Assembly: GCA_024278345.1 (NCBI GenBank)
Contig: JAJRTK010000057.1
Coordinates: forward strand, 1 to 10,801
Length of the DNA: 10,801 nucleotides
DNA from: a bacterium
GTDB lineage: Bacteria; CSSED10-310; JAJRTK01
Direction: 5' to 3'
Positions 7,502 to 10,207 of the stretch are shown in pieces. The notes beneath the pieces are model-generated. The model made no database searches, had not been told where the DNA came from, and saw only the letters and a list, made by a program, of their open reading frames with translations. How positions within the stretch are numbered: position 1 is the stretch's first letter; each line of letters starts with the position of its first letter. The position numbers were made by a program, and so were the translations under genes.

Positions 7502-7549
7502 GGCGAGCAGCGGCGGTGGGACGCCGCTGATGTGAGCGGAACTCAACCC
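7502..7549 (+). repeat. REP-like palindromic element, copy A
   Basis: A 48-bp element that reappears inverted at 10160-10207. CAGCGGCG (7508-7515) and CGCCGCTG (7522-7529) form a perfect 8-bp stem around the six-base loop GTGGGA, followed by a conserved tail ending GGAACTCAACCC and an A-rich run. The hairpin-plus-tail design resembles dispersed REP elements. It starts about 25 bases upstream of the AGGAG of the exported-protein gene. Confidence 0.8.
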
Positions 7550-7976
7550 AAAAGAAAACCACTGGCACTCTTGAATCCCGTCTCCCGCGCTGGATCTTTT
7601 CGCAAAAAGTCAGTCTACCACCCTTCAGGTCGCTGTTCCACGCCAGGTTTTCCCGCAAGAACCTCGCCTACGGTTTTTCCTGACGACCCTCTTTATTGGC
7701 GCTGTTTTTGTGAAGAAACGGCTTCCTCCAGATCTCCGCCGGCCTTGGAGAAGTCAGCTCATTTGAAGGCCTGGCGTTGCATTCCTTGGCCGAACGTGGA
7801 AGATCAGGGGAAAGAAATCTTGCTCCTTCGTCGTCACCGGAGAGGGAAATTCGATCTGGCCAATTCGCCTTTCCCTCCTTCTTTCCTAACGCTCCCGCGG
7901 AATGCTCTTTCCCGCGCTCTTTTCTACACTCTTTCCGTGCCGGGCCTTGGCCACCGGAGTGATTTAGCACTGTTCC

Positions 7977-7982
7977 AAGGAA
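7977..7982 (+). promoter_or_regulatory. Shine-Dalgarno fixing the EF-G start
   Basis: AAGGAA lies five bases before the ATG at 7988. It decides the start against many upstream in-frame codons in the long open leader, and the protein homology begins right after it. Confidence 0.8.
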
Positions 7983-7987
7983 GTTCC

Positions 7988-10075
7988 ATGAGTCCTCAAC
8001 CCCCACCAAAAAAGATCCGCAACTTTGGCATCGTGGCCCACATTGACGCCGGAAAGACCACGACTACCGAACGTATCCTTTATTACACGGGGGAGATCCA
8101 TCGCATCGGCGAAGTCGATTGGGGCACGACGCAGACGGACTGGATGGAGCAGGAGCGGGAGCGGGGAATCACCATTACCTCGGCGGCCACGGTTTGTCAT
8201 TGGCAGGGCCACCAGCTCAACCTCATCGACACGCCAGGGCACGTTGATTTCACGGCGGAGGTGATCCGGAGCCTTCGAGTTTTGGATGGTGCCGTGGTCG
8301 TCTTTTGCGGTGTTGGCGGAGTGGAGCCTCAGTCCGAAACGGTCTGGCGCCAGGCCGACCGGCACCGGGTCCCGCGCATCACTTTCGTCAACAAGATGGA
8401 CCGCATGGGCGCCGATTTCTACCGCGTTCTGGAGATGATGAAAGAACGCCTTGCCGCGACGCCGGTTCCGCTGCAACTGCCCATCGGCAGCGAAAAGGAG
8501 TTTCGTGGAGTCGTGGACCTCATCGAAAACGAGGCTCTCTACTTCTCAGAAGACGACCACGGAAGCACCATCAAGAAGGGACCTGTTCCCGAGGAGATGC
8601 TGGAGCTTGTGGAGACCTGGCGGCAGAAGCTCTTCGAGGCGGCCGCCGAGGCTGACGAAGAGCTGTTGGAGCTCTACCTCGAGGATCAGCCTTTGAGCCC
8701 GGAGCAGATCCGCCGCGCCATTCGCACCCGCACTCTTGATTACAAAATCCAGCCCGTCCTGTGTGGCGCTGCCCTGCGAAACATCGGCGTTCAGCCTCTC
8801 ATCGATGCCATCGTGGAGTACCTGCCCTCTCCGCCAGAGCTCTCCGAGATCGTGGGCTTCGATCCCAAGAAACCGAGCGTCACCATCACCCGGGCCCGGA
8901 GCGCCAGCGAGCATTTCTCCGCCCTGGTCTTCAAAATCATGACCGAAGACTTCGGGCAACTGGCCTATTTCCGGGTCTATTCGGGAAAAATCCGCACCGG
9001 CGACATCTTTTGGAACGTCACGCGGGAAAAGCAAGAACGCGCTGGCCGAATCCTCCGAATGCACGCCGACAAGCGGGAGATCCTGAGAGAGCTTCGCGCC
9101 GGCGATATCGGCGCCTTTTTGGGAACGAAGTTCTGCCACACCGGCGACACCCTGGCTCGGAAAAGCCACCCGATCCTTTTGGAATCCATCGCTTTCCCAG
9201 AACCCGTGGTGCGCGTGACCATCGAGCCCAAGACCCAAGCTGACATCAAAAAACTCGATGAAGCCCTTAAGACGCTCCAGCGGGAGGATCCCACTCTCAA
9301 GCTCCAGAAGGACGAGGAGTCGGGACAGATGGTCATCGCCGGAATGGGCGAGCTCCATATCGAGGTGACGGTCTCCCGCCTCGAATCCGACTTCAAGGTC
9401 CAGGCCCACATCGGCAAGCCCAGAGTCACCTACCGGGAGTCCATCAACCAACGCGCCAGAGCCGAAGCACGCTTTGAAAAGGCCCTGGACGAGAAGAAGA
9501 AGATGTTCGGCCAGGTCTCCCTCGGCCTCGAACCCATCAAAACAACCACCAAGCTCGATCTGGTGAACGAGCTGTCGAAAAAGCGCATCCCCAAAAGTGT
9601 CGTCAAGCAGATCGTGCTCGGGATTCAGGAGGCGATGGATTCCGGTGTCCTGGCCGGCTACGAAATGTGCGGCATCCGCGTGATCCTCCTGGACGCCAAG
9701 CTGCCCGACGGCGACATCCAGGAAATCGCCTACAAGGTAGCCGCAACCATGGCCTTCCGCGATGCCTTGGAAAAGGCCGAGCCCATCCTCCTCGAACCCG
9801 TCATGAAGGTCGAAGCCGTCACCCCAGAAGACCACATGGGCGCAGTCTTGGGCGACCTCCAGGCCCGCAGAGGCAGGATCGAAAAGATCGAAACCCACGG
9901 CACCACCAAGTTCATCGACGCACTGGTCCCGCTGGCCAAGATGTTCGGCTACACCACCGATCTCCGCTCCCTTAGCCAGGGCCGCGCCAACTCCTCCATG
10001 CTCTTCTCGCACTACGAAAAGATGACGAAGGAGCTCAGCAACCAAATCGTCGGAGTCTACCGCTACAGCAGTTGA
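7988..10075 (+). CDS. fusA: elongation factor G (stand-alone paralogue with divergent domain IV)
   Basis: 695 residues, the usual EF-G length. All GTPase motifs are present: G1 AHIDAGKT (17-24), G2 RGITIT (59-64), G3 DTPGH (81-85), G4 NKMD (135-138) and a G5-like CGAA. Domain II, domain III ([15 protein letters not shown]), domain IV and domain V ([16 protein letters not shown]) follow in order. EF-G hydrolyses GTP on the ribosome to move tRNA-mRNA and, with RRF, to recycle subunits. Two domain IV tip features differ from the E. coli protein as I recall it. The Gly-rich loop (SGGRGQYG) reads LDEKKKMFG, and the loop with the tip histidine (YHDVDSSE) reads LPDGDIQE, with Pro in place of His. 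The region after G1 ([16 protein letters not shown]) also departs from the common VHxGxxTMDWM form. There are no rpsL, rpsG or tuf neighbours, so this is probably a second or spd-type EF-G, not the str-operon gene. Confidence 0.95.
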
Positions 10076-10091
10076 CATTCCCCAAGCCCTT

Positions 10092-10110
10092 GAAGAAAAG
10101 ACCCTTCTTC
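10092..10110 (+). terminator. weak hairpin downstream of EF-G
   Basis: GAAGAA (10092-10097) pairs with TTCTTC (10105-10110) around a seven-base loop, 17 bases after the EF-G stop codon. The stem is A/T-rich and no T-run follows directly, so it is a poor intrinsic terminator. The T7 at 10144-10150 and the REP hairpin may matter more. Confidence 0.25.
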
Positions 10111-10159
10111 CAGCTTCAGCTCCGCAACTTCAAGGACCGCCGCTTTTTTTGGTTGAGTT

Positions 10160-10207
10160 GGGTTGAGTTCCGCTCACGTCAGCGGCGTCCCACCGCTGCC
10201 CCTCGCC
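10160..10207 (-). repeat. REP-like palindromic element, copy B (inverted)
   Basis: The reverse complement of this segment matches copy A (7502-7549) without gaps over 48 bp, with only a few substitutions that are concentrated at the hairpin end. Its stem is shorter: CAGCGG (10180-10185) with CCGCTG (10193-10198). The tail motif is duplicated here (GGTTGAGTT twice, 10151-10169). The tails of A and B point toward each other across EF-G. Confidence 0.8.

Follow-up and report, generated by a model that had tools for sequence, protein, structure and literature searches.

The two sequences that flank the EF-G gene in the stretch of DNA analyzed here are two members of a lineage-specific REP-like repeat family. 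Its members share one ordered anatomy with a covarying stem, number in the hundreds, and lie mostly between genes, and a minority of them are carried within IS1-type MITEs. The stretch, called the window below, is 10,801 nucleotides long and represents contig C524 of a draft genome from an uncultured organism (6.06 Mb in 550 contigs, 88% complete). We consider a joint reading of these observations probable, in which the bare majority of copies, both EF-G copies included, would have spread as single-strand hairpins via a RAYT-type enzyme, a minority would have traveled in IS1-type MITEs, and direct neighbors would have been lost by joint cutting of two same-strand hairpins, so that inverted neighbors such as the EF-G pair remain.

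The EF-G pair and its repeat family

The two copies form the longest inverted repeat in the window, with arms at 7502-7551 and 10158-10207 (50 nt, 46/50 matching, 92% complementary); the arms of the runner-up are 27 nt long at 70%. A sequence-only reading had described them as near-identical, ungapped inverted copies, each with a hairpin and with a tail that borders an A-rich or T-rich run, and as enclosing EF-G with its leader and nothing else, and all of these points were borne out. Copy 1 (7502-7549, + strand), delimited by the family profile, an inverted-repeat search, and folding, is a bare REP-like core made up of a GGCGA head (7502-7506), a GCAG foot (7507-7510), an 8-bp stem (7508-7515/7522-7529), and the tail GAGCGGAACTCAACCC (7534-7549); no recognizable IS1-type ends were found around it. 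Copy 2 (10160-10207, - strand) is inverted relative to copy 1, with its head at 10207-10203, a stem at about 10198-10193/10185-10180, and the same tail at 10175-10160. Past the head of copy 2 by 47 nt, which is the right distance, lies a weak IS1-end-like sequence, GGTGATGCGCC, with a shuffle fraction of 0.066. Each tail is followed by an A-rich tract, AAAAGAAAA at copy 1 (7550-7558, + strand) and AACTCAACCAAAAAAA at copy 2 (10143-10159, - strand, T-rich on the + strand), both read from the sequence and from the family profile, in which positions 16 to 27 from the start of the tail are A-rich; a tract at this place is a family-wide trait. The enclosed EF-G gene (7988-10075, + strand) encodes 695 amino acids with ordinary domains, the full EF-G set. 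This gene has no ribosomal-protein neighbors, and besides it, on C524, the genome contains three other full-length EF-G homologs (C298, C480, and C358) that are 38 to 47% identical to it.

Sequences of the same kind occur throughout the genome. The 16-base tail pattern GAGCGGAACNCAACNC has 209 exact matches in the genome and none in a backward control, and the EF-G pair is therefore not a product of chance; the tighter 16-mer GAGCGGAACNCAACCC has 91 matches. When 0.82 Mb of fetched DNA was scanned with a profile made from tail-bearing copies, 145 distinct copies came up, as opposed to none once the DNA was reversed. Contigs chosen regardless of the element carried 72 copies in 0.50 Mb, and separate held-out contigs carried 57 in 0.52 Mb (0 when reversed). 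Overall density is about 126 per Mb (about 110 to 143), which corresponds to one copy per ~8 kb and ~760 copies per 6.06-Mb draft. The whole-genome search for a shared core that the earlier reading had proposed succeeded through the tail-bearing family, which is genome-wide, and failed for the 34-bp core itself, which has no third match at up to 3 mismatches. The same reading's suggestion of a genome-wide REP-like family holds, given extragenic copies in the hundreds and a single RAYT-type gene elsewhere in the genome. Beyond this genome, GAGCGGAACNCAACNC had no match in seven other genomes of the phylum, GAGCGGAACNCAACCC had one stray match among 385 other genomes, and the repeat family itself was found in none of the 385 other genomes searched. 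Phage origin was rejected, as tail matches in viral contigs come without the remainder of the element.

The conserved unit consists, in order, of the GGCGA head defined by the family profile, a 4-base foot, a hairpin of variable sequence, the tail GAGCGGAACNCAACCC, and an A-rich tract ~12 bases long; GAGCGGA is near-invariant. Feet occur as GTGG, GCAG, and GTAG, and among 48 held-out copies the foot is GYRG in 30 and strict GTAG in 8. Within the 33-nt class (79 copies), the main pairing signals fall on or beside one helix (7-30, 13-24, 12-25, and 15-21): 7-30 is GC in 42 copies and AT in 34, 13-24 is GC in 49 and CG in 17, and 12-25 is CG in 50 and GC in 19. The covariation was repeated in 31 held-out copies, where 7-30 was GC in 16 and AT in 15 (100% paired). 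The hairpin is therefore maintained, though single copies fold unremarkably: taken singly, the window hairpins showed no unusual stability (folding z -0.2 to -1.6), and support for the hairpin comes from covariation across copies rather than from the folding energy of any one of them. An outer stem between the two flanks of the core was rejected, since complementarity between the flanks is no greater than between shuffled ones. One subclass carries an extra hairpin (GGGGAACTCGTGCC ... GGCACGGGTC) within the loop of the core hairpin (C154:211+, C218:14494+, C301:474+, C501:4591-, and others).

MITE-borne and bare copies

A minority of copies, 12 to 24% (33/139; 7/57 in the held-out set), lie in the middle of a longer MITE, and most copies are without its ends. 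The MITE is ~147 bp long (146 to 172 bp), starts with GGTGGTGCTCCAGCCCTAGGGC, finishes with GCCCTAAAAGAAGAGCACGACC, and has the alignable ends GGTGGTGCTC...GAGCACGACC. Perfect 8-bp target duplications, such as CGTTTTCG, CGAATCTG, and AGGATTCC, flank 9/22 complete MITE copies, compared with 1.8% of control pairs at a match of at least 7/8; two of four held-out MITE copies have an 8-bp duplication at 7/8. Remnants of IS1-family transposase, seen at five places and interrupted by contig ends or other insertions, close with the same end, GGTGGTGCTCYATRGTTAGGGCATT. Because this end is common to the MITE and the transposase remnants, and because of the 8-bp duplications, IS1-type transposition of the MITE form is well supported, and it was presumably the IS1-family transposase, whose remnants have the same ends, that moved this form in trans.

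The MITE form resembles bacterial MITEs moved by a resident IS, such as MITEAba12, in being short and non-autonomous and in having ends that match a resident transposase (PMC6382973). Target duplications mark a fraction of copies in both cases, 40% for MITEAba12 (PMC6382973) and 9/22 complete copies here. The two differ in that the duplications here are 8 bp rather than the 9 bp of MITEAba12 (PMC6382973) and the ends are of the IS1 type, and in that such ends occur only in a minority of copies, the interior hairpin core being found also alone.

The window contains a third family member, an internally deleted MITE of 79 bp (2323-2401, - strand; nhmmer E 2.2e-11 over a 55-bp alignment), in which left arm, head, and the right end GAACACGATC are present and the core tail is missing. 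Direct repeats of CAAAGGAC, read from the sequence as its left (2402-2409, - strand) and right (2315-2322, - strand) target-site duplications, flank it. This copy lies within a hydrolase-like open reading frame (1140-2453) and adds 29 residues near the N terminus; because insert and duplication together make 87 bp, the frame is kept.

The whole family could be an IS1-type MITE, in which case bare copies would be old MITEs with decayed ends, the core would be only the MITE interior, and a RAYT would have no part in it. The IS1-type signature is, after all, the only insertion signature demonstrated, and some copies beyond the young class have end-like sequence where an end would be expected: GGTGGTGCTC at no more than 3 mismatches occurs in 38 copies at position -50, against a background of 9 per bin, though many of these 38 are young. 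We see this account as a possibility to be kept in view, though an unlikely one, because the cores of non-MITE copies are nearly as well kept as those in MITEs (0.78 versus 0.43 mismatches in 13 tail positions), and neither an end signal nor a surplus of direct repeats accompanies the non-MITE copies. In several bare copies, moreover, the core is identical to that of other subfamily members, but arms are absent altogether. Simple MITE decay fits such copies poorly, which favors a core that also spreads alone, as the joint reading has it. The fetched DNA yielded no empty site corresponding to a bare copy.

Two further mobile-looking elements were seen. One is a second palindromic element of ~200 bp (GGTCATCGTTTCGGCCACCC ... 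GGCCGAAACGATGACC) with a possible 8-bp duplication, at ~15352 of L196 (- strand), with relatives in L254, L253, and L138. The other is another IS1-type element, set apart by its end (GGTGGTGCTGTTCAGGTAGTGATG); it occurs at C400 (L252) and also adjoins the RAYT gene (L033 2680-2870).

The RAYT-type gene and comparison with known REPs

The draft contains one RAYT-type gene, C390 (L033:1012-1737). Its protein matches NF047646 with E 1.4e-18 and 67 bits, under the NCBIfam cut-off of 80, and PF01797 with 30 bits, over the Pfam cut-off when scanned as protein. The HxH and tyrosine motifs are kept, as pointed out against an approximate sequence of E. coli TnpAREP. Across the stop codon of the gene lies a divergent family-like sequence (score 24.5; control mean 10.8, sd 4.1, maximum 30.5; nhmmer E 0.05), and REPs that overlap the 3' ends of RAYT genes have been described (PMC3733652). 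The link between the gene and the repeats is suggestive only. The RAYT gene also holds two in-frame GTAG-type palindromes (GGGGCGGGTTCGGAACCCGCCCCTAC) that encode AGSEPAPTQPD repeats; they were rejected as the main REP of the genome, since they occur at only three places in it.

The family itself has two properties of REPs, an imperfect palindrome kept by compensatory change and a high copy number, mostly extragenic. It is like a GTAG-superfamily REP in being a short, extragenic, imperfect palindrome with a stem mismatch and hundreds of copies, and in having a one-sided foot near the degenerate GYRG forms (PMC3733652, PMC8266576), and degenerate GYRG REP families have been described (PMC3733652). 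As in REPtrons, the genome has a RAYT-type gene whose 3' end a copy may overlap, and as in known REPs, direct (HT) neighbors are under-represented (PMC3733652, PMC8266576). Unlike GTAG REPs (PMC3733652, PMC8266576), however, the family has strict GTAG only in a minority and carries a conserved 16-nt unpaired tail with an A-rich tract, its short-distance pairs are few and its orientation bias extends over several kb, and some of its copies sit inside an IS1-type MITE. No CGTC, the tetranucleotide of the CGTC superfamily, was found at conserved positions beside the hairpin. An integron attC identity was also rejected: copies are singly dispersed, the RYYYAAC-like ACTCAAC varies in its YYY positions, and the other end is without GTTRRRY. 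By description only, the family may be likened to ERIC and BOX elements, which are conserved, palindromic, intergenic repeats of ~50 to 150 bp with high copy number; to our knowledge, no IS partner of the kind seen in the IS1-type MITE has been established for them. We likewise know of no direct observation of the spread of REP repeats.

One covarying pair, 7-30, involves the foot: its partners are the third base of GYRG and the 3' foot of the hairpin. The role proposed for GTAG in RAYT systems is that of a guide pairing with the site of cutting, and in one system a change from GTAG to GTGG gave cutting at CC (PMC8266576). The covariation at 7-30 would be compatible with a guide-like foot, and an ordinary base pair explains it equally well.

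The sequence-only reading had also raised the idea of a REP doublet. This had to be dropped, as the EF-G copies are 2.6 kb apart, compared with known REP dimers, in which most partners lie within ~100 bp and direct dimers are rare (PMC3733652). Pairs closer than 300 bp are few genome-wide, which does not fit REP dimers, REPINs, or BIMEs.

Orientation and placement of copies

Neighboring copies tend to face in opposite directions. In a count restricted to copies with a verified tail, 36/47 consecutive copies less than 6 kb apart were inverted (p=0.00035), as were 23/26 less than 3 kb apart (p=0.00009) and 21/25 neighbor pairs in which both copies are bare. The bias was noticed post hoc and then tested once on one held-out contig set: below 6 kb, 24/33 pairs were inverted in the first half of the sample and 12/14 in the held-out contigs (p=0.013). 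It fades with distance, direct pairs making up 0/16 below 1.6 kb, 4/19 at 1.6 to 3 kb, and 8/23 at 3 to 6 kb. Gene strand was rejected as the cause of the alternating orientation (36 versus 33). Inverted pairs that enclose genes are tail-to-tail, as the EF-G pair is, in 33 cases versus 12, a provisional excess that comes largely from the held-out half. The inverted layout with inward tails around EF-G is thus as the earlier reading described it, and it follows a genome-wide tendency rather than being specific to EF-G.

RAYT enzymes bind one strand of the repeat only (PMC8266576), and for this reason two same-strand copies could be excised together, most readily when they are close. In the mechanism that the joint reading proposes, a RAYT-like enzyme would cut out same-strand copies along with the intervening DNA, so that direct pairs would be lost and inverted pairs spared. 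The specific claim that the kilobase-scale inversion bias reflects excision between same-strand copies by a RAYT-type single-strand nuclease, with the family shaping which segments can be lost and the EF-G pair being a survivor, is a tentative one that we judge distinctly unlikely. Same-strand deletion alone leaves the tail-to-tail excess (33 versus 12) unexplained. If same-strand excision is true, RAYT enzymes would be more than relics, in that they would bring about genome deletion, a prediction that can be checked in any complete REP-rich genome. The present genome offers two handles at once: a clear transposase signature in a minority of copies, and an orientation pattern on the kilobase scale in the bare majority.

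Inverted neighbors could also be retained because paired tails mark or insulate blocks of genes, in a chromosome-organizing role that owes nothing to the excision of direct pairs. The tail is nearer to a gene than the head in 72/112 copies (40 show the reverse; p=0.00013), which together with the 33-to-12 tail-to-tail excess of gene-enclosing pairs speaks for such a role. We nevertheless hold it to be very unlikely, as direct pairs are scarcest at the shortest distances (0/16 below 1.6 kb), a pattern that fits loss better than placement, and the tail-to-tail excess stems mostly from the held-out half.

With genes predicted by a simple codon-usage script, which makes exact distances approximate, the midpoints of 15/158 copies fell inside predicted genes, compared with 126 expected, and the family is extragenic. 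Such a location, along with the strong covariation, would suit a core that functions as a structured RNA or as a signal in transcription, such as a terminator or leader element, and is retained between genes on that account. This reading is nonetheless highly improbable, because copies between genes of one direction show no strand preference (36 on the same strand, 33 on the opposite), no T-run follows the hairpin on either strand, and neither the window nor a full-length copy has an Rfam match. Folding energies are modest, and the element is absent from other genomes, which also argues against an RNA or signal function.

The earlier suggestion that the two copies are the ends of a transferred EF-G cassette deserves next to no credit: they are each other's nearest relatives and enclose only EF-G, but copies are everywhere, one every ~8 kb, so that at ~126 per Mb chance would place another copy within 2.7 kb in ~28% of cases, and no target duplication and no ends were found around the pair. 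Their identity, 44/49, is an ordinary nearest-neighbor value (range mostly 37 to 49), and the pair is without special link to EF-G. Local duplication was rejected as the source of the pair, since neighbors resemble each other no more than random pairs do (31.5 versus 30.8 of 49).
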